56,614 bases of DNA from Thermoanaerobaculia bacterium. Lineage in GTDB: Bacteria; Acidobacteriota; Thermoanaerobaculia; Gp7-AA8. How positions within the stretch are numbered: the stretch's first letter is position 1; each line of letters opens with the position of its first letter. Below the pieces are notes generated by a model that was not told the origin of the DNA, ran no database searches, and was given only the letters and a program-made list of their open reading frames with translations. A program made the translations under genes and the position numbers. Below, one piece after another: positions 6,835 through 54,471 of this stretch. The DNA is taken from NCBI GenBank assembly GCA_017883205.1, contig JADGNZ010000038.1:1-56614 (forward strand), written 5' to 3'.

Positions 6835-6855
6835 GAATTTTCGTTAGAACCATGC

Positions 6856-6919
6856 ACCACAGAGACACTGAGGTCACAGAGTTGAGACGTTCACTCTGTG
6901 CTCTCTGAGTCTCTGTGGT
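6856..6919. repeat. CACAGAG-family palindromic repeat, copy 2
   Basis: ACCACAGAGACACTGAGG and its inverse ending CTCTGTGGT flank a short loop. It lies between the surface protein and the oligopeptidase gene. It could act as a weak terminator, but it has only a short T-rich stretch (GGTTTTGT) to its right. Confidence 0.9.
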
Positions 6920-6967
6920 GATGGTTTTGTCTTCTTGCCTATACTCGGCGGCCACAGGAGACGTTCC

Positions 6968-10479: not shown

Positions 10480-12393
10480 TTACTTGTAGCTCCTCGTGGC
10501 CAGCTTCACTTCCTCATAGACGAGCGGTTCTTTGTGCAGCTCCGGCGCGTCCTTCTCGCCCTTGAACTGCCACGCGCCGACGTAGAGGAACTTCTCGTCA
10601 TCACGCTGCGCCTCACCCTCGGCCGTTTGATGTTCGACCCGGAAGTGGCCACCGGCAGATTCTTCGCGGTGCAGGGCATCGATGCACATCAACTCGCCGA
10701 GGTCGAAGAAGTCAGCGACGCGTCCGGCACGTTCCAGAGCCTGATTCGGCTCTTCGTTCGTGCCGAGAACGCGGACGTCGCGCCAGTACTGCTCGCGCAA
10801 TGTTCGAATGTCTGCGATTGCGCTCTTCAGCCCTTCGGCCGAGCGGGCCATGCCGCAGCGCTCCCACATGATGTTGCCGAGCTCGCGATGGAACGAGTCG
10901 ACGCTGCGGCTTCCCTTCGCCGTCACAAGCTTGTTGATGCGCTGCTCGACTTCGGCCTGCGTCTGCTTGAACTCCGGCCTTGTGGCGGCGACTTTCTTGC
11001 CGAGCTGACCGGCCAGGTAGTCGCCGATCGTCACCGGCAGGACGAAGTACCCGTCGGCCAGACCCTGCATCAGGGCGCTGGCGCCGAGGCGGTTGGCACC
11101 GTGATCGGAGAAGTTAGCCTCGCCGCCGACGTAGAGGCCAGGAATCGTCGACATGAGGTTGTAGTCGACCCACAATCCGCCCATCACGTAATGGGGAGCG
11201 GGATAAATGCGCATCGGAAGGGAGTAGGGATCTTCTGCAGTGATGTCGGCATACATTTCGAAGAGATTGCCGTAGCGCTCTTCGATGATTGGGCGCCCGA
11301 GGCGTTTGATGGCGTCGGCGAAATCGAGATAGACGCCGCGGCCGCCCGGACCGACTCCCCGCCCTTCGTCGCAGACCTCTTTGGCGCCGCGGGAGGCGAT
11401 ATCGCGCGGCGCGAGGTTGCCGTAGCTCGGATATTTGCGCTCGAGGTAGTAGTCGCGCTCGTTCTCCGGAATCTGATCGGGGCGGCGCGTGTCGCCGCCC
11501 TTCTTCGGAACCCAGATGCGGCCGTCGTTGCGCAGCGACTCCGACATCAGCGTCAGCTTCGACTGGAAATCGCCGCTCTGCGGGATGCATGTGGGATGAA
11601 TCTGCGTGTAGCAGGGATTGGCAAAGTACGCGCCGCGGCGATATGCGCGCCAGATGGCGGTGGCATTGGACGCCTTGGCGTTCGTCGACAGATAGAAGAC
11701 GTTGGCGTAGCCGCCGGTGGCGAGAACGACTGCGTCGGCGGCGTACGATCCAATCGTGCCGGTGACGAGGTCACGGGTGATGATGCCTTTGGCCTGACCT
11801 TCGACGAGAACGACGTCGAGCATCTCGTGGCGCGGGAACATCTTCACGCGGCCGAGGGCGATCTGGCGCTCCAGCGCCTGGAACGCGCCGAGGAGGAGTT
11901 GCTGTCCGGTCTGGCCGCGGGCGTAGAACGTTCGCGAGACCTGCACGCCGCCGAACGAACGATTGTCGAGCGTGCCGCCGTATTCGCGGGCGAATGGCAC
12001 GCCCTGCGCGACCGCCTGATCGATGATGTTGACGCTGAGTTGCGCGAGCCGGTAGACGTTCTCTTCGCGGGAGCGATAGTCGCCGCCTTTGACGGTGTCG
12101 TAGAAGAGCCGGTAAACGCTGTCGCCGTCGTTCTGATAGTTCTTGGCGGCGTTGATGCCGCCCTGCGCGGCGATGGAATGCGCCCTGCGCGGCGAGTCGT
12201 GATAGACGAAGCATTGGACGTTGTAGCCGAGCTCGGCCATCGTGGCCGCCGCGGCGGCGCCGGCCAGTCCGGCACCGACAACGATGACGTCGTACTTCCG
12301 TTTGTTGGCCGGATTGACGAGCTTGTAGTGGGCTTTGGCGTTCTCCCACTTCTTGTCGATCGGTCCGGGCGGGATCTTGCTGTCGAGAGTCAT
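10480..12393 (-). CDS. sdhA: succinate dehydrogenase/fumarate reductase flavoprotein
   Basis: The catalytic FAD subunit of complex II, 637 residues, as expected for B-type (Bacteroidetes/Bacillus-like) enzymes. The FAD dinucleotide fold is at about residues 34-60 ([20 protein letters not shown]). [15 protein letters not shown] marks the FAD-linking histidine region. [15 protein letters not shown] and the R-x-G-A-S-A-L-M-Q-G segment belong to the active site and FAD domain. A GGGA site lies about 10 nt before the ATG. It follows sdhC by 43 bp and abuts sdhB, so the three form an operon that links the TCA cycle to menaquinone or ubiquinone reduction. Confidence 0.97.
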
Positions 12394-13254: not shown

Positions 13255-13419
13255 CAGCGATCAGGGATCAGAGATCAGGACTCTGACTTCCCCTGATCTG
13301 GTCTCTGGTCTCTCGTCTCTGGTCTCTCGTCTCTGGTCTCTGGTCTCTGGTCTCTGGTCTCTCGTCTCTGGTCTCTCGTCTCTGGTCTCTCGTCTCTGAT
13401 CTCTTGTCTCTGATCTCTA
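13255..13419. repeat. heptanucleotide tandem repeat (TCTCTGG/TCTCTCG)
   Basis: After an inverted pair built from GATCAGGGATCAGAG and CCCCTGATCTGG, the region becomes more than 15 successive 7-bp units, mostly TCTCTGG or TCTCTCG, ending at the 3' end of the nucleotidase gene. It fills nearly the whole 254-bp gap between sdhC and that gene. No gene is visible. Copy number may vary by slippage. Confidence 0.9.
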
Positions 13420-24332: not shown

Positions 24333-24497
24333 ATGAAATCAGATCACATGAACGTGAAATCAGAGCATATGAGTGTGATCCCGGCTCACATTAGTGTGAT
24401 CCCAGATCATGTGAACGTGATCCAAGTTCATACGAGTGTGATCCAGGATCACATGAGTGTGAAATCGGATCACGTGAATGGGAAACCAGAACCCGTG
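24333..24497. repeat. 21-bp tandem array A
   Basis: Seven consecutive 21-bp units (24348-24494) follow a partial unit. The core is ATGAGTGTGATCCCGGATCAC with substitutions, containing GATCAC/GTGATC inverted elements. Every unit is exactly 21 bp, so an open frame (24333-24503 plus) reads as heptapeptides M-S-V-I-P-D-H, but no ribosome site is clear and first codon positions vary freely. The last two units also encode the C-terminus of the minus-strand gene at 24470. Confidence 0.92.
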
Positions 24498-24807: not shown

Positions 24808-25013
24808 CCCCTCATCCGGCCTTCGGCCACCTTCTCCCCATCTGAGAAGCGATGGGGAGAAGGCGCTCGAACTTAACGCGCGCCATCAATTCACTCGGCG
24901 CACGAGGCGAGAGGCGAGTGGTGGATCGCGTGGACCCTCGCGCCGACCTCCAATCGAGCGCCTTCTCCCCTCGTGCTTTTCGAGGGGAGAAGGTGGCGAA
25001 GCCGGATGAAGGG
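24808..25013. repeat. CTCATCCGGC-family inverted repeat, long copy
   Basis: CCCCTCATCCGGCCTTCGGC at the left and GGCGAAGCCGGATGAAGGG at the right are outer arms. Inner arms CCTTCTCCCC/GGGGAGAAGG occur on both sides. It fills the gap between the small conserved gene and the DUF5916 gene. A shorter copy is at 37869-37929. Confidence 0.88.
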
Positions 25014-25070
25014 TGTCGTGCAATCGACAGACTCAAAGTTCCTGAACGCGTGAAGTGTCCCGACCGGCGA

Positions 25071-27992: not shown

Positions 27993-29225
27993 TTGACCGC
28001 GATCGAAGATGTGTTTCGCAGCGAATGGGGCCGGCTCCTTGCGGCCCTCATTCACCTCCTCGGCGATTTCGATGTCGCCGAGGAGGCACTGCAGGAAGCG
28101 TTTGCAGCGGCGGTGACGGAGTGGGCCGGCGAAGTCCCGCGCAATCCGCGCGCATGGCTGTACGGAACCGCGCGGCACAAAGCGATCGACCGGTTGCGCC
28201 GGCGCGCGCGCTTTGCGGAAAAGCAGGCGGAGCTTGCCTACCTCGCTCCGTCCGCAACGAGTGATGAGATGAACGATGCCGACGAATCCGGCGTCCCCGA
28301 CGAGCGCCTCCGCCTGATCTTCACCTGCTGCCACCCGGCGCTGGCCGAAGACGCGCAGGTGGCGTTGACGCTGCGAACGCTCTGCGGCCTGTCGACCGAG
28401 GAGATCGCGCGTGCGTTCCTCGTCCCGACCGCAACGATGGCGCAACGCCTCGTGCGCGCGAAAGCGAAGATCCGCGGCGCCGGGATTCCATATCGCGTAC
28501 CGCCCGCATCCGAGCTGCCCGAGCGCCTGTCCGTGGTGATGGCCGTCGTCTATCTCGTCTTCAACGAAGGCTACGCCGCGGCGAGTGGTGAGTCGCTGGT
28601 GCGTCACGATCTCTGCGCCGAAGCAATTCGTCTGGCCCGCGTGCTGCGCGCCCTCCTCCCCGACGCGCAACTCGACGCGTTACTCGCGTTGATGCTCCTC
28701 CACGAAGCACGGCGTGCAACACGCGTCGACGACAACGGCGAGATGGTCCTCCTCGCCGATCAGGATCGATCGCGCTGGGACCGCGCCGAGATCGACGAAG
28801 GCCGCGCATTGCTGCAATCGTCGCTGCGTACCTCGCGCCCCGGCACGTACGCGCTCGAAGCCGCGATTGCCGCCGTCCACGCAGACGCTCACATCGCCTC
28901 GGATACCGACTGGAAGCAGATCGCCGCGATCTACGAGCGCCTGTACTTTCTCCACCCAACTCCGATCGTCGCGCTCAACCACGCGGTAGCAGTATCAATG
29001 TCCGACGGCCCCGCCGCGGCGTTGCCGCTTGTCGCTGCGCTGTCCGACTCGCTCATCGACTACCACCTCTGGCACGCCACCCGCGCCGATCTCCTTCGCC
29101 GCCTCGGCCGCGATGACGAAGCCATCGCAAGCTACCGTCGAGCGCACGAGCTGGCGGGCAACGACGCGGAGCGGCGGTTTCTCGCGCGAAGGATAGAAAA
29201 ACTGGCGAGCTCAAGACACGACTGA
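27993..29225 (+). CDS. ECF42-type sigma factor with DUF6596/TPR C-terminus
   Basis: The 410-residue protein has sigma-70 region 2 at about residues 10-80 (WGRLLAALIHLLGDFDVAEEALQEAFAAAV, RNPRAWLYGTARHKAIDRLRR) and region 4 at about 110-165 (LTLRTLCGLSTEEIARAFLVPTATMAQRLVRAKAKIR). The DUF6596 region follows (YLVFNEGYAAASG, LCAEAIRLAR) and helical TPR-like repeats fill 320-400. No anti-sigma gene is adjacent, which is usual for this group, where the extension is thought to control activity. The start is TTG 27993; the nearby ATG 27979 is out of frame. Confidence 0.92.
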   Translation: MTAIEDVFRSEWGRLLAALIHLLGDFDVAEEALQEAFAAAVTEWAGEVPRNPRAWLYGTARHKAIDRLRRRARFAEKQAELAYLAPSATSDEMNDADESGVPDERLRLIFTCCHPALAEDAQVALTLRTLCGLSTEEIARAFLVPTATMAQRLVRAKAKIRGAGIPYRVPPASELPERLSVVMAVVYLVFNEGYAAASGESLVRHDLCAEAIRLARVLRALLPDAQLDALLALMLLHEARRATRVDDNGEMVLLADQDRSRWDRAEIDEGRALLQSSLRTSRPGTYALEAAIAAVHADAHIASDTDWKQIAAIYERLYFLHPTPIVALNHAVAVSMSDGPAAALPLVAALSDSLIDYHLWHATRADLLRRLGRDDEAIASYRRAHELAGNDAERRFLARRIEKLASSRHD

Positions 29226-29328
29226 TACAAAGACCAGAGCGACGGTACTTGGCAATCGTTCACCGCAGGGGTCCGTTCCCAGAGCCACCGGTTGCGTTCT
29301 TTCGACGAATTTCCGGTCATCGCGGGTC

Positions 29329-29853
29329 TTCGTTTCTACCATGGAGTAATGAATACCGACGTTGCCCATATTCACGTCTACCATGGTGGAGCAAATACAG
29401 TCCTCGTCCGAATTCACGCAGTCGTTTGACTGAGTTTTGCCGAGGTTGGCTGAATTCAGACGCGATTTGCCCGGTTTCACCCAGGCTCAGCTTGCGTTCA
29501 CGTCTACCATGGAGGAACTCATAACAAGATTGACCAAATTCACGTCTACCATGGTGGACAAAATGCAGACATAGATTGAATTCACACCGTCGTTAGACTG
29601 AATTTTGCCGAGGCGGACTGATTTCACACGCGATTTGTCCAAGTTTCCGCAGGCTCAGCTCGCCGTCACGTCTACCATGGAGGAATTCATAACATGATCG
29701 ATCAAATGCACGTCTACCATGGAGGCGTTCATGCCGACATTCCGTGAATTCACGCCATCGAAGAGCGATTCTCTGCCGCCGTTGTCCGTTTCATCACGGT
29801 GTTAGCCGGGATTCACGCCGACTCACCCGGGGTTCGCGTCTACCATGGTGGAG
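29329..29853. repeat. 21-bp tandem array B with 168-bp higher-order repeat
   Basis: Exactly 25 monomers of 21 bp, most beginning TTCA. CTACCATGG starts at 29336, 29378, 29504, 29546, 29672, 29714 and 29840, that is at alternating steps of 42 and 126 bp. Monomers therefore form an eight-member unit of 168 bp (blocks at 29371, 29539 and 29707, plus two monomers before). Within the blocks, equivalent monomers match (for example TTCACGCAGTCGTTTGACTGA and TTCACACCGTCGTTAGACTG), while neighbours differ. Degenerate units extend left to about 29260. Single 20- and 22-bp units and stop codons rule out coding. Confidence 0.95.
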
Positions 29854-29855
29854 TT

Positions 29856-30040
29856 TCACTTCACCACGATCGTCGTGTCATCCGCCGGCGTTGCGGGCCT
29901 GGCGTGGGTGCGCCAGTCTTCGAGGATCGCGGTAAGAATCGCGGCGGCGGCGCGGCGGGAGACTTTGCCCAGGATTTCGCGGAGGCGGTCGAAGCCGTAG
30001 GGGCGGGCGTGGGCGTCGTGAGCTTCGAAGAGGTCGTCGA
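29856..30040 (-). pseudogene. duplicated 3' fragment of the PP2C phosphatase gene
   Basis: The sequence repeats the last 180 bp or so of the phosphatase gene at 30180, with about 14 differences. It is in the same orientation and begins about 340 bp downstream of it on the minus strand. It encodes the equivalent of AHDAHARPYGFDRLREILGKVSRR through DDTTIVVK and then stops at TGA 29856-29858. It lacks any start and the catalytic part. Divergence is mostly at codon third positions but includes amino-acid changes. It lies between array B and a GGGGTCAGGTC element. Confidence 0.9.
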
Positions 30041-30046
30041 ATGCGC

Positions 30047-30168
30047 TTTCAAAATGGCACTTTCAAAACGGGGTCAGGTCTACTCTTGAAAGTGCTCACC
30101 GGCATCAAGAAGACGAAAACAGGTGGTCACTTTCAAAAGTGGACCTGACCCCATTTTGAAAAGTGCGC
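30047..30168. repeat. GGGGTCAGGTC inverted element, copy 1
   Basis: GGGGTCAGGTC at 30070-30080 is inverted as GACCTGACCCC at 30142-30152. Both arms are bordered by CACTTTCAAAA/TTTTGAAAGTG tracts, so the element is nested-palindromic. It lies between the PP2C fragment and the intact gene. GGGGTCAGGTC ends are typical of small non-autonomous REP/MITE-like elements. No transposase is in the window. Confidence 0.85.
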
Positions 30169-30179
30169 GCGTGGGCAAC

Positions 30180-32498
30180 CTACCTCCTTTTCACAACCAC
30201 GATCGTCGTGTCATCCGCCGGCGTTGCCGGCCCCGCGTGGGTGCGCCAATCTTCGAGGATCGCGGTCAGGATTGCGGCGGCCGGGCGGCGGGAGACTTTG
30301 CCGAGGATCTCGCGGAGGCGGTCGAAGCCGTAGGGGCGGGCGTGGTGGTCGTGAGCTTCGAAGAGGCCGTCGGAGAAGATGACGATGGTGGTGCCGGTGG
30401 GGATGGAGAGCGGCGTGTCGGCGTACTCACGCGTTGGGCCGAGTCCGAGCGGGAGCGACGGGAGATCGAGCTCGCGAACTTCGGCGCCGCGAACGATCCA
30501 GGGATACGGGTGGCCGGCGTTGCTGACGAGCGCTTCGCCGGTGATTGGATCGAGACGGAGCAATGCCAGCGATGTGAACGTTCTTGGCGAGCCGATCTCG
30601 CGCAGGACGAGGTCGAGGCGTTGCAGCACCATCGCCGGGGTTCGCTCCGCTTCGACGAGGCTGGCCAGGCCGGCCTTCGTCATCGCCTGGGCAATTGCAC
30701 ATGAGTAGCCGTGGCCGGAGACGTCGCCCGCTGCAATCCAGAGCCGGCCGGCCGAGTCGTGCACGAAGTCGTAGAGATCGCCGCCGGCTTCGCTGGCCAG
30801 AATCGAGCTGGCCACGATCTCGTAGCCTTCGATCTGCGGCATCTCCTTCGGCAGGAGGCCGAGCTGCATGCGCGCCAGCAGATCCATCTCGTACTTCAGC
30901 CGGTTCTCCTCCTCCACACGACGCGCGAAGTCGGGAAGGGGAAGCGGTCCGTCTTCCGCTTCGTCGTCGCGGCGGATGCCGAGGAGTCCGAGGGGCACGG
31001 GCGCGATCGCCACGGCGAGGAGCAGCACTGACGCCAGCGGCACCCAGTAGAAATGAAGCAGCGAGTAGAGCGCCGCGGGAAGAACGGCCGACATCATCGC
31101 CGCGGTGAGCAGCGCGGTGAGTCCGAACTCCGCGTACGCGTAAACCAGAATCGCCGTCAAAAGAAGGCCCGCGGTGAACGCGATCCCGAACGACGAAAGC
31201 GGGATGCGCGTGGCCAGCACCAGTCCGCCGAGGAGCGTCGCGCCGCCGCGGATGCGCCGGAGAAGCGGCCAGCGCAGCGCGATGCAGAAGACAAGCATGA
31301 TCAGGCCGGTGCGAAACGCTCCTTCTTCGATCGGCGATGTGGCCACGCCGAAGAACGGCATGCGGATGCTGCCATCGGTCGTGGCCACGCCCGGCACCAT
31401 CGTCCCGAACGACATCGCCAGCAGCCAGAGGCCTGCGACCGATGCGCCGATCGACCAGCCGGCGAGCAGCGCCGTCCCGCCTTTCGGTCCGAGCCGTCCC
31501 GCGCGAAGCGTGTCGAGTGACGTGCGGAAACCGGGCACCGTCGAGCGCAGCCACGACTCGGCCGCCGACCAGAGGACGAAAAGGGACAACGCTTTACCGA
31601 CGACAAGCGTTAGATCGTTGACGAGCTGAATCCAGGAAGCGGAGCTCCCTAAGGCTCCGGGCAGCGACATGGCAATCGAGAGCCCAGCGAGGACGAGACC
31701 TTTCTTCAGCTCGATCCGCCGCCGTATCAGAAGAAGGCCGAAGAGCAAAATGACGGCGATCCAGAAGATGGCGCGAACGATCATCGTTTCCAGCCGCGCA
31801 GTCATGAACGATCCGAACGTCAGGTTTTCCAGCCGGCTTCGCATGGAACCGACTGTGCCCACGACTCGCTTCGCCTGCGGAACGTTCGAGCCTCGTAGCG
31901 AGGTCGTGATGAGAACCTCCGGCGGCGTGGTTCCCGGTATGGCAGCGAGACGCAGCGTCTCGGTCATCACGGTCATTTCGACCTCAGGAACCGTTTGACC
32001 TGGAGGGAGGAACAGCCGCTCCAGCTCCAGCCGCGCGGAGGGAGCGGACGATCGCGATCGCAGCAACTCTTCCGGAAGCCACACCGCCGAGAGGGGAACA
32101 CCGCGCACCGTGAAGAGGACGCGAAGCTGCCCCCGTTCGTCGCCGCCTCCCCATCGAGTTTGGGCGGACGCGTCGACGTATGGCCCGCGGCCTTCGCGCG
32201 CCAGCCAATCGGCAGCCGCCGGCCCGAGAACGTCGTATGCCTTCTCGCGGTCGGAAAGAAGATCGCTCTCCAATAGGATGCCGTTCGATCGGAGCTGCAC
32301 GTGCGGCAGGGACTCGAGACGGATATCGGCGGGACCGGCGATCTGCTGCAACCTCGCCGCGAAGAAGCTTTCCTCGGGGATGCTCAGATTGCGCCACTCG
32401 GGAAGCTGGCGCAAGGCGACGATGACGCCGATTGCGAACACTGCAACTCCGATGGCACTCAGCCCGAGGAGTCGCATGCGCCGGTCAGGTCCACCCAT
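30180..32498 (-). CDS. membrane-anchored PP2C (SpoIIE/RsbU-type) phosphatase
   Basis: The 772-residue protein has an N-terminal membrane helix (about 12-30), an extracytoplasmic region (about 32-230), a multi-helix membrane domain (about 240-505) and a cytoplasmic PP2C/SpoIIE domain (about 540-772). Metal-site aspartates are in EAGGDLYDF, AAGDVSGHG, FSDGLFEAHD and DDTTIVVV. Such phosphatases usually act on anti-anti-sigma (STAS) partners; none is encoded nearby. The multi-helix region is unusually large for a sensor. TATACC lies 9 nt before ATG 32498 without a Shine-Dalgarno, so the mRNA may be leaderless; ATG 32477 is an alternative. Its 3' end is duplicated downstream. Confidence 0.9.
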   Translation of the reverse strand: MGGPDRRMRLLGLSAIGVAVFAIGVIVALRQLPEWRNLSIPEESFFAARLQQIAGPADIRLESLPHVQLRSNGILLESDLLSDREKAYDVLGPAAADWLAREGRGPYVDASAQTRWGGGDERGQLRVLFTVRGVPLSAVWLPEELLRSRSSAPSARLELERLFLPPGQTVPEVEMTVMTETLRLAAIPGTTPPEVLITTSLRGSNVPQAKRVVGTVGSMRSRLENLTFGSFMTARLETMIVRAIFWIAVILLFGLLLIRRRIELKKGLVLAGLSIAMSLPGALGSSASWIQLVNDLTLVVGKALSLFVLWSAAESWLRSTVPGFRTSLDTLRAGRLGPKGGTALLAGWSIGASVAGLWLLAMSFGTMVPGVATTDGSIRMPFFGVATSPIEEGAFRTGLIMLVFCIALRWPLLRRIRGGATLLGGLVLATRIPLSSFGIAFTAGLLLTAILVYAYAEFGLTALLTAAMMSAVLPAALYSLLHFYWVPLASVLLLAVAIAPVPLGLLGIRRDDEAEDGPLPLPDFARRVEEENRLKYEMDLLARMQLGLLPKEMPQIEGYEIVASSILASEAGGDLYDFVHDSAGRLWIAAGDVSGHGYSCAIAQAMTKAGLASLVEAERTPAMVLQRLDLVLREIGSPRTFTSLALLRLDPITGEALVSNAGHPYPWIVRGAEVRELDLPSLPLGLGPTREYADTPLSIPTGTTIVIFSDGLFEAHDHHARPYGFDRLREILGKVSRRPAAAILTAILEDWRTHAGPATPADDTTIVVVKRR

Positions 32499-39333: not shown

Positions 39334-39348
39334 CCGAGGGAAAAACCA

Positions 39349-39408
<60 letters not shown>

Positions 39409-39428
39409 GATTGGTTTTGAGAAATTGA

Positions 39429-46690: not shown

Positions 46691-46919
46691 CATTCCCATC
46701 AATTTTGTCATCAACATCAGAGAGATCGTCTTCATCATTACAGTGATAGGACTATATCGATAGAGACATTGTCTGTATCGATAGAGACGTTCGACTGTAA
46801 CGTTACAACCGTTCGACTGTAACGTTGGAGACATTGTCTGTAACGACAAAGACATTTGTCTTCAACGACATAGACATTGTCTTCAACGTTGAGGAGATTG
46901 TCTTCGACGTTACCGTACT
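46691..46919. repeat. 21-bp tandem array C
   Basis: About eleven units of 20-22 bp, core GTAACGnnnnAGACATTGTCT, with local dyads AGACAnTGTCT and AACGTT in each unit. Unit starts include 46691, 46712, 46733, 46754, 46775, 46797, 46819, 46840, 46862, 46883 and 46904. It is AT-rich compared with surrounding genes and unrelated in sequence to arrays A, B and D. 22-bp units break any reading frame. Confidence 0.92.
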
Positions 46920-49673: not shown

Positions 49674-49707
49674 GTGGTTAGCGTAGCAGACCGGACGGAA
49701 ACCCTTT

Positions 49708-49770
49708 ACCACAGAGACACAGAGGTCACAGAGAAAGACTTCAACTCTGTGTCCTCTGTGCCTCTGTGGT
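49708..49770. repeat. CACAGAG-family palindromic repeat, copy 5
   Basis: ACCACAGAGACACAGAGG and CCTCTGTGCCTCTGTGGT arms. It lies between the MerR-TPR gene and the acyltransferase gene, immediately upstream of the latter's promoter. Confidence 0.92.
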
Positions 49771-51644: not shown

Positions 51645-51790
51645 CAGATGGGGGTGGGGAGTGGGGGGTGGGGTGTGGAGCGCGCGACGGTTGCAGGTTG
51701 GCGGTTGTCGGGGTCGGGAGTCGGGAGTCGGGAGCCGGGAGTCGGAGATCAATCTTCTCCCACACCCCACCCCCCACACCCCACCCCCAT
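51645..51790. repeat. G-rich palindrome between ku and the ATL gene, G-quadruplex potential
   Basis: GGGGGTGGGGAGTGGGGGG and following GGTGGGGTGTGG (51649-51678) face CACACCCCACCCCCCACACC (51759 on). The middle holds GTCGGGAGTCGGGAGTCGG (51715-51750). Four or more runs of at least four G separated by one or two bases could form a G-quadruplex. It fills the shared 195-bp upstream region of two DNA-repair genes. Confidence 0.85.
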
Positions 51791-52739: not shown

Positions 52740-53393
52740 AAGCGTGATTTTTCGTCGGAGGAACGCGATTTTCGTCGAAAAGAACGCGGCGACACGGTAG
52801 ATGAACGCGATTTTCAGCGGAAAAACGCGACGGAGTGGTGGATTAACGCGACAACATCCCGATGAGCTCCGCAGCTCGGCGGCTGAAACGCGACATCCCG
52901 GCGGCTGAACGCAACATCACGGTGGCTGGACGCAACAGCACGCAGGGTCAACACGACAACACGCCGGATGAACGCGACCGCACGCCGTATGAACGCGACA
53001 GAACAGCCAGATGAGCACGACAGCATGGTGGATGAACGCGTCAACCCGCCAGATGCACGCGACCGCACGGCGGACAAGCGCGACAGCATGGCCCGACAAG
53101 CGCGATTGCATGGCCGACAAGCGCGACTACACGGACGACAAGCGCGACCGCATGGTCGACAAGCGCGACCGCACCGGCCAACAAGCGCGACTGCACGGCC
53201 GGCAAGCGCGACCGCACGGCCGACAAGCCCCACTGCATGGCCGCCAAACGCGACTGCATGGCCGACGAGCACGACTGCATGGCCGACAAACGCGACTGCA
53301 CGGCGGACGAATGCGCCAGCACGGCGGTTCGCCGCGACAATCGAACGGATGACCGTGATCGTCCGGCGGCTTGCCGCGACAGTCCGGTGGATT
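52740..53393. repeat. 21-bp tandem array D (31 units)
   Basis: About 31 units with consensus AAGCGCGACTGCATGGCCGAC, of which roughly five are 22 bp and one pair is shortened to 40 bp. Units at 53093-53300 are the most alike; those at both ends are more diverged (for example GAACGCGATTTTCGTCGAAA at the left). Frames stay open on both strands for long distances, giving heptapeptide repeats such as R-L-H-G-R-Q-A, but 22-bp units shift the frame, so no single protein is encoded. The array ends 51 bp before the next gene and 24 bp before its TATACT. Confidence 0.95.
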
Positions 53394-54249: not shown

Positions 54250-54471
54250 GGGGGTGGGGTGTGGGGTGTGGGAGGTGGGAGTTGATTCTCGAGAGGACCG
54301 GACTGGCTTCCGCAAACCGCGAAAGCGTCCATCGGCGTCATCGATTGCCATCGACGGCCATGGCTTCGTTGCCCGACGCCCAACTACTAACCTGCCCACG
54401 AAACCGGGGCCAAGCTTAGACTCTCCGACCCCCCACACCCCACCCCCCACTCCCCACCCCCCACTCCCCGT
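54250..54471. repeat. GGGGTGGGG/CCCCACCCC long inverted repeat
   Basis: GGGGGTGGGGTGTGGGGTGT (54250 on) faces ACCCCCCACACCCCACCCCC (54429 on), with about 145 bp between. It lies between the convergent lipoprotein and DUF1566 genes. The left arm has G-quadruplex potential, as at 51645. Confidence 0.88.

Follow-up and report, generated by a model that had tools for sequence, protein, structure and literature searches.

A 21-bp array with higher-order repeats in a Thermoanaerobaculia bacterium, probably a copied and now frozen array of a lineage-specific class of minisatellites

The intergenic array at 29329 raises the question of whether a short bacterial tandem repeat can carry a second level of order, how such an order arose, and what holds the length of its units. 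The window, i.e. the whole stretch of DNA that was analyzed (56,614 nucleotides), contains the array between two convergent genes (Table 1). Self-match analysis confirmed its coordinates, length and unit count as originally predicted: 25 units of 21 bp, arranged head-to-tail, fill 525 bp. The head-to-tail copies exceed chance, as in bacterial minisatellites. The original prediction also held that units eight apart resemble each other more than neighbours do, which would define a 168-bp higher-order unit. The self-match of the array is 0.714 at lag 168 and 0.630 at lag 336, whereas it lies between 0.376 and 0.476 at the remaining multiples of 21 (up to 378) and at approximately 0.16-0.31 one or two bases away from these. 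When the 25 units were reordered at random 5000 times, no spacing of 1 to 16 units gave a mean identity above 0.643, and the observed value was never attained. This shows a higher-order repeat of alpha-satellite-like form. Tandem Repeats Finder, the use of which had been proposed as a check, reported 168 bp as the sole period over the array (29362-29722, 2.1 copies, score 489). All seven CTACCATGG boxes start at the positions claimed for them (29336, 29378, 29504, 29546, 29672, 29714 and 29840). The stretches separating these boxes themselves recur at 168 bp and are not unique spacers, so that a CRISPR array was rejected. The proposed block-wise alignment of the units gave identities of 0.762 for A-B, 0.655 for B-C and 0.601 for A-C; units 20-24 of block C are decayed and have 9-13 of 21 bases in common with block B. 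A fixed 21-bp grid accommodates every unit, and the TTCA box at units 22/23 begins one base early. A 20-bp unit balanced by a 22-bp unit, as had been suggested, is possible but not required by this grid. Since homology to the second copy described below reaches 29309-29872, extra faint units may flank the 25. Stops occur in all six frames (3 to 22 per frame), and the array is therefore taken to be non-coding.

Table 1. Coordinates of the array, its neighbours and related features
Feature	Position	Strand	Remarks
Gene for sigma-70-like factor with DUF6596	27993..29225	+	Left neighbour of the array, convergent to the SpoIIE gene
Segment common to window and C73	window 29309..29872 / C73:11428-11991	+ / -	564 bp ungapped, 91% identity, 51 mismatches
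Array of 25 x 21-bp units	29329..29853	+	From self-match and unit alignment
Block A	29329-29496		Eight units
Block B	29497-29664		Eight units
Block C	29665-29832		Eight units, followed by unit 25
Seven CTACCATGG boxes	29336..29848	+	42/126 bp spacing
Apparent pilB-like last-codon remnant, GGTGAAGTGAAA	29854..29865	-	From comparison with GGTGAAGTGA
Duplicated 3' end of SpoIIE gene	29862..30039	-	Fused to the array; 59 residues, 93%
Long imperfect hairpin, GGGGTCAGGTC arms	30057..30166		Between the two SpoIIE ends; z -8.35, 0/200 shuffles as stable
Gene with SpoIIE phosphatase domain	30180..32498	-	Right neighbour of the array
21-bp array	24334..24490		Palindromic unit (p 0.03)
21/22-bp array	46758..46909		Related to the array at G000:C11:2532-2779
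20/21-bp array	52749..53327		Levels of 41, 64 and 85 bp; related to an array in L156 (G000:C16)

The same genome (G000) harbors a second copy of the array on the minus strand at C73:11447-11971, with equal unit number and the same eight-unit order. Across the 525 bp the two copies differ at 48 positions (29 transitions and 19 transversions). As this copy is 9% diverged and has an identical two-level structure, assembly error, which had been named as a possible cause of the pattern, is ruled out. Compared by position between the loci, the blocks are 0.923 (A), 0.881 (B) and 0.911 (C) identical, whereas block identities within the loci range from 0.542 to 0.762; the values within C73 are 0.750 (A-B), 0.685 (B-C) and 0.542 (A-C). 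Because blocks match better between the loci than within them, the 168-bp pattern is, judging from this comparison, older than the copying, and the array was copied whole. No exchange is visible thereafter, as neither copy appears to have altered its unit number or swapped blocks. Ongoing concerted evolution as in satellite DNA was rejected on the same grounds. Of the unequal exchange in steps of eight units that had been proposed, the pattern is present; however, it would be a fossil that predates the copying, and slippage would be indistinguishable from it.

Relatives of the array were found neither by DNA comparison in 59 other genomes nor by motif in 19 other genomes, and the longer motif TCTACCATGGNGGA is confined to the window and C73 arrays among 20 genomes. 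At C73 the array occupies all of the space from the end of a pilB-like gene, which has a T2SSE domain and its stop at 11444, to an open frame of the opposite strand, which ends at 11991 and has a helix-turn-helix-like tail, as judged by eye. The array thus occurs at two loci with different flanks, as in a dispersed, MIRU-like family. Window and C73 also share dispersed repeats of approximately 60-95 bp (window 24948-25041, 6846-6929, 39342-39411 and 49699-49770), which match the first 20 kb of C73 at approximately 74-89% and do not overlap the arrays.

The direction of the copying is indicated by the junction of the window copy, which is adjoined on the minus strand by GACGATCGTGGTGAAGTGAAACTCC. 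The tail GGTGAAGTGA terminates the pilB-like gene in G000, in G002, a member of the same genus whose pilB protein is 93% identical, and in G010; pilB of G012 has other terminal codons, and in G003, G005 and G009 no pilB ends were found by the script. The SpoIIE gene's own end is unlike GGTGAAGTGA (VVVKRR here, VVVKRSG in a relative); the protein of this gene is 70% identical to one encoded in a Thermoanaerobaculia MAG (JADGNY010000013.1, locus L032). The junction lies in CGATCG(T/C)GGT, which is common to the ends of the pilB and SpoIIE genes. As the window array carries an apparent pilB tail fused to a duplicated SpoIIE end, the window copy was probably derived from C73 at this short shared sequence. 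The tail comprises only approximately 12 bp, which weakens this reading of the direction. We infer that a single event, a switch at short homology, placed a copy of the pilB-adjacent array at the SpoIIE site. Regarding the ends of a mobile element, homology stops at the gene ends in C73 and the SpoIIE end duplication flanks the window array on one side only, with only two copies to compare. The hairpin between the two SpoIIE ends is MITE-like in look.

No array was found beside pilB at the seven loci examined, with the G001 piece ending before the gene's 3' end, nor within the 1.5 kb following pilB of G002. Downstream of the latter gene, at L183 4813-4919, its 3' end is duplicated in two pieces (53 bp at 100% and 55 bp at 85%) that are joined to each other, a layout somewhat reminiscent of the SpoIIE end in the window. 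In the congener, L032 5599-5906 is a 21-bp array with a different unit at the 5' side of the SpoIIE gene. Since this is the other side of that gene, a locus apparently gains and loses arrays.

The original prediction treated the array as singular. This was not borne out, as arrays with second levels of 42, 63, 66 or 85 bp occur elsewhere in the genome, and one of 64 bp in G002, although only the window and C73 arrays clearly have an order of eight. The scan, with lags of 12-90 bp, covered 821 kb of the genome (13%) and samples of G002, of G009 and G012 (two other genera of the same family) and of G049 (another family of the class). Lags of approximately one to four times 21-22 bp, a set that comprises 18 of the 79 scanned lags (23%), were found in 38 of 47 intergenic periodic regions of G000. 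These comprise 17 of 22 regions in 421 kb of contig starts, window and L009, and 21 of 25 regions in 400 kb of internal sequence. The corresponding fractions were 9/12 in G002 (306 kb), 6/15 in G009 (343 kb), 0/5 in G012 (400 kb) and 0/1 in G049 (400 kb). Block-shuffled G000 sequence of the first sample yielded no periodic region at lags of 12-72. Periodic regions inside genes, called by a simple codon-usage script, were set aside (4 in the G000 starts, 5 internal, 3 in G002, 5 in G009, 4 in G012 and 22 in G049); two of those in G009 have a lag of 21, and four in G049 a lag of 21-22. The first G000 sample consists mostly of contig starts, where assemblies break in repeats, and was corrected by the internal sample, the density of which (52 arrays per Mb) extrapolates to approximately 330 arrays in the genome. 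Six contig starts lie inside tandem arrays (C16, C18 and C20 of G000, C5, C6 and C9 of G002), five with units of 21-22 bp and C18 with 14/156 bp. Assembly thus seems to break there, and the number of arrays may be underestimated.

In the 821 kb, 39 intergenic rows with units of approximately 21-22 bp or small multiples were recorded, covering 17.6 kb (2.1%) with generous row bounds. The C73 array was entered twice and two overlapping stretches of L044 were entered apart, and the rows take in the heptamer-based stretch L052 5902-6119 as well as rows of lag ~43 that lack a clear 21-bp level. The window array is absent from them since its 21-bp self-match is below the threshold; the L037 array, scored as genic for its open frame, is also outside. 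At two units a gain was seen in ten of the 39 rows, of which two are C73 pieces. BLAST sorted the rows into 27 groups, nine of them with two or three members, one of which is the C73 array with itself. Matches to a dispersed 22-bp family, some of them weak, lie on 11 contigs, and a dispersed 21-bp family occupies seven loci. The other arrays of the window (Table 1) have units different from those of the array at 29329. A second repeat class was observed alongside: the best lag was 14 in 11 of 54 intergenic regions of the 821-kb sample, and 7- and 14-bp arrays occur in the window at 13297-13418, 51650-51788 and 54428-54469, with units including TCTGGTC, GTCGGGA and ACCCCCC. Taken together, the window array is read, at a probability of roughly 0.6, as a copied and since then frozen array of a lineage-specific class of minisatellites whose unit is close to two helical turns.

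A constraint that keeps the 21-bp phase had also been predicted, and the gap sizes between copies suggest that the phase is unusually well kept. For this comparison 51 arrays were used. Of these, 37 came from the 39 rows and 11 were loci of the two dispersed families, and three (window, C73 and L037) were added by hand; one locus was dropped as a duplicate and weaker family matches were left out. Between array copies from separate loci (56 pairs), 147 gap openings were counted against 2729 mismatches, 145 of size 1 and two of size 21, whereas other intergenic repeats (29 pairs) showed 182 gaps against 838 mismatches, with sizes from 1 to 10. When each array was used only once (14 pairs), 45 gaps remained against 845 mismatches, 44 of size 1, one of size 21 and none of 2-20; in the controls used once (11 pairs), 25 of 50 gaps, against 329 mismatches, had sizes of 2-10. 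Arrays and controls differ in gap rate (p = 2e-6) and gap size (p = 5e-9), with control repeats that are few and include heptamer-rich DNA, which may gain indels easily. Most arrays stem from the fixed-lag scan, which favours phase-keeping; the families found by BLAST escape this bias in part. Of the 21 pairs in the 21-bp family found by BLAST, one has five gaps and the other 20 have at most one, and most pairs of the 22-bp family carry several one-base gaps (up to 8 per pair). The DNA alignment of the duplicated SpoIIE end with the original is also gap-free in the portion viewed, so that the lack of gaps in one pair of copies is weak evidence alone. Length change thus seems restricted to approximately 1 bp or whole units, and we think that a constraint at the DNA level tied to helical phase is likelier than chance.

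These data bear on whether the arrays are simply products of neutral slippage, i.e. ordinary minisatellites without phase constraint, the 21-22 bp being what replication or repair errors produce in this lineage. The arrays show no clear preference for a gene orientation, as would be expected of such DNA: 16 lie between tandem, 9 between convergent and 7 between divergent genes, with 7 at edges, compared to 90, 38 and 54 for all gaps of at least 200 bp. For the same reason a terminator role and a preference for convergent genes were rejected. Turnover, seen in the absence of an array beside pilB in G002 and of matches in the 59 relatives, also fits a neutral origin. However, the inter-copy gaps of only 1 or 21 bp, as opposed to 1-10 bp in the controls, do not, and a narrow range of unit lengths over many unrelated sequences calls for a physical cause. 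Neutral slippage is therefore considered possible, but not probable.

Alternatively, with a spacing of two turns, sites would lie on the same side of the helix and could be recognised by a nucleoid-type or dimeric protein; the sites here would be the CTACCATGG boxes 42 and 126 bp apart. Such a role would agree with a unit near two turns, with the kept phase and with palindromes, which are significant (p<0.05) in 10 of 39 unit consensuses where approximately two are expected. Between the two copies, CTACCATGG positions changed in 1 of 63 cases compared to 47 of 462 elsewhere (p = 0.02), in a test picked post hoc. At the best centre of a dyad with a constant place in the units, 42% of positions are paired against a mean of 25% over centres; this was judged weak, since a consensus alone could produce it. 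On the other hand, the units differ among families, so that no single sequence is read, TCTACCATGGNGGA is restricted to two arrays, and both of these lie between gene ends, away from promoters. Over 24 arrays, the phasing of A-tracts at 10.5 bp does not exceed chance (mean percentile 0.58), although the window array itself reaches a percentile of 0.97, and curved DNA through phased A-tracts was rejected as a general rule. A same-face protein array thus appears doubtful. More doubtful still is the widest reading of the class, in which the lineage would keep approximately 300 intergenic arrays in one genome (approximately 2% of its DNA, extrapolated from the 13% sample) near two helical turns, spread by whole-array copying between loci and conserving helical phase over sequence. 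Such arrays would serve a protein that organises the chromosome and recognises the shape or the spacing from one side of the helix.

It is very unlikely that the arrays act in RNA as hairpins, be it as terminators, stability elements or small-RNA precursors. Several units are clearly palindromic, and z is below -3 in 20 of 37 arrays compared to 20 of 60 control intergenic pieces, which supports this idea in part for other arrays but little for the window array. The latter is structured only in block A on the minus strand (z -5.08), whereas blocks B and C show values of at least -1.09 on both strands, and most consensuses (all but the 10 noted above) are not significantly palindromic. No Rfam family was matched at gathering score; a lax threshold gave five hits to miRNA families, none of which reached its gathering score. 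Four of them lie on the 30057-30166 hairpin and one on the array, and all are read as chance. A coding repeat of seven residues, intact or decayed, is hardly credible, even though 21 bp equal seven codons and an open frame or more is present in 17 of the 23 other arrays with 21-bp units, because this count is close to the permutation mean (14.6, sd 2.0), units of 22, 43, 64 and 85 bp break the frame and stops occur in every frame of the window array. Hairpin, A-tract, orientation, coding and Rfam tests thus gave no general answer as to a function of the arrays.

Returning to the reading as a frozen, copied class member, the following history is proposed. A 21-bp unit would first have been amplified in tandem, and a block of eight diverged units would then have been amplified again to approximately three blocks by slippage or unequal exchange, which would leave the pattern that is observed. 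The finished array beside pilB at C73 would have been copied to the window locus as one 564-bp segment and joined to the SpoIIE end at CGATCG(T/C)GGT, bringing along the last pilB codons seen at the junction, possibly by template switching in this direction. Since then both copies have decayed by substitution at a constant unit number, as the differences between them show.

MIRU/VNTR-type repeats of mycobacteria and other bacteria are interspersed tandem units in intergenic DNA. The arrays described here share the intergenic tandem units and the occurrence of one family at several dispersed loci, but differ in units of approximately 21-22 bp over many unrelated sequences, in the two-level order and in the equal unit number of both copies. 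REP/BIME elements and the NIME of Neisseria are clusters of palindromic repeats dispersed in intergenic DNA; the present arrays are likewise intergenic and dispersed with some palindromic units, but are spaced head-to-tail at approximately 21 bp, with significant palindromes in the minority of consensuses given above. Eukaryotic alpha satellite consists of diverged units in higher-order repeats that are megabases long. The likeness to it that had been predicted holds for the form, i.e. diverged units of which those n apart are closer than neighbours, but not for the behaviour: 25 units occupy only two intergenic loci, homogenisation between blocks since the copying is not visible, and nothing points to a role as a centromere. 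Among the matches listed from titles and abstract openings of the open-access literature, there was no description of higher-order repeats in bacterial intergenic DNA, nor of 21-22 bp array classes in Acidobacteriota. According to PMC4060949, prokaryotic genomes show a sequence periodicity of 10-11 bp with periodic spacing genome-wide. The link of the helical period to DNA sequence is shared, but here it takes the form of discrete arrays without overall A-tract phasing.

With a minisatellite class of one physical length and many sequences, the factors that determine tandem repeat length become testable. Together with the record of one array's move, the class also allows a test of whether helical phase is under selection in the non-coding DNA of bacteria. 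The second level of order shows that small bacterial arrays can develop satellite-like patterns, and that these can freeze.
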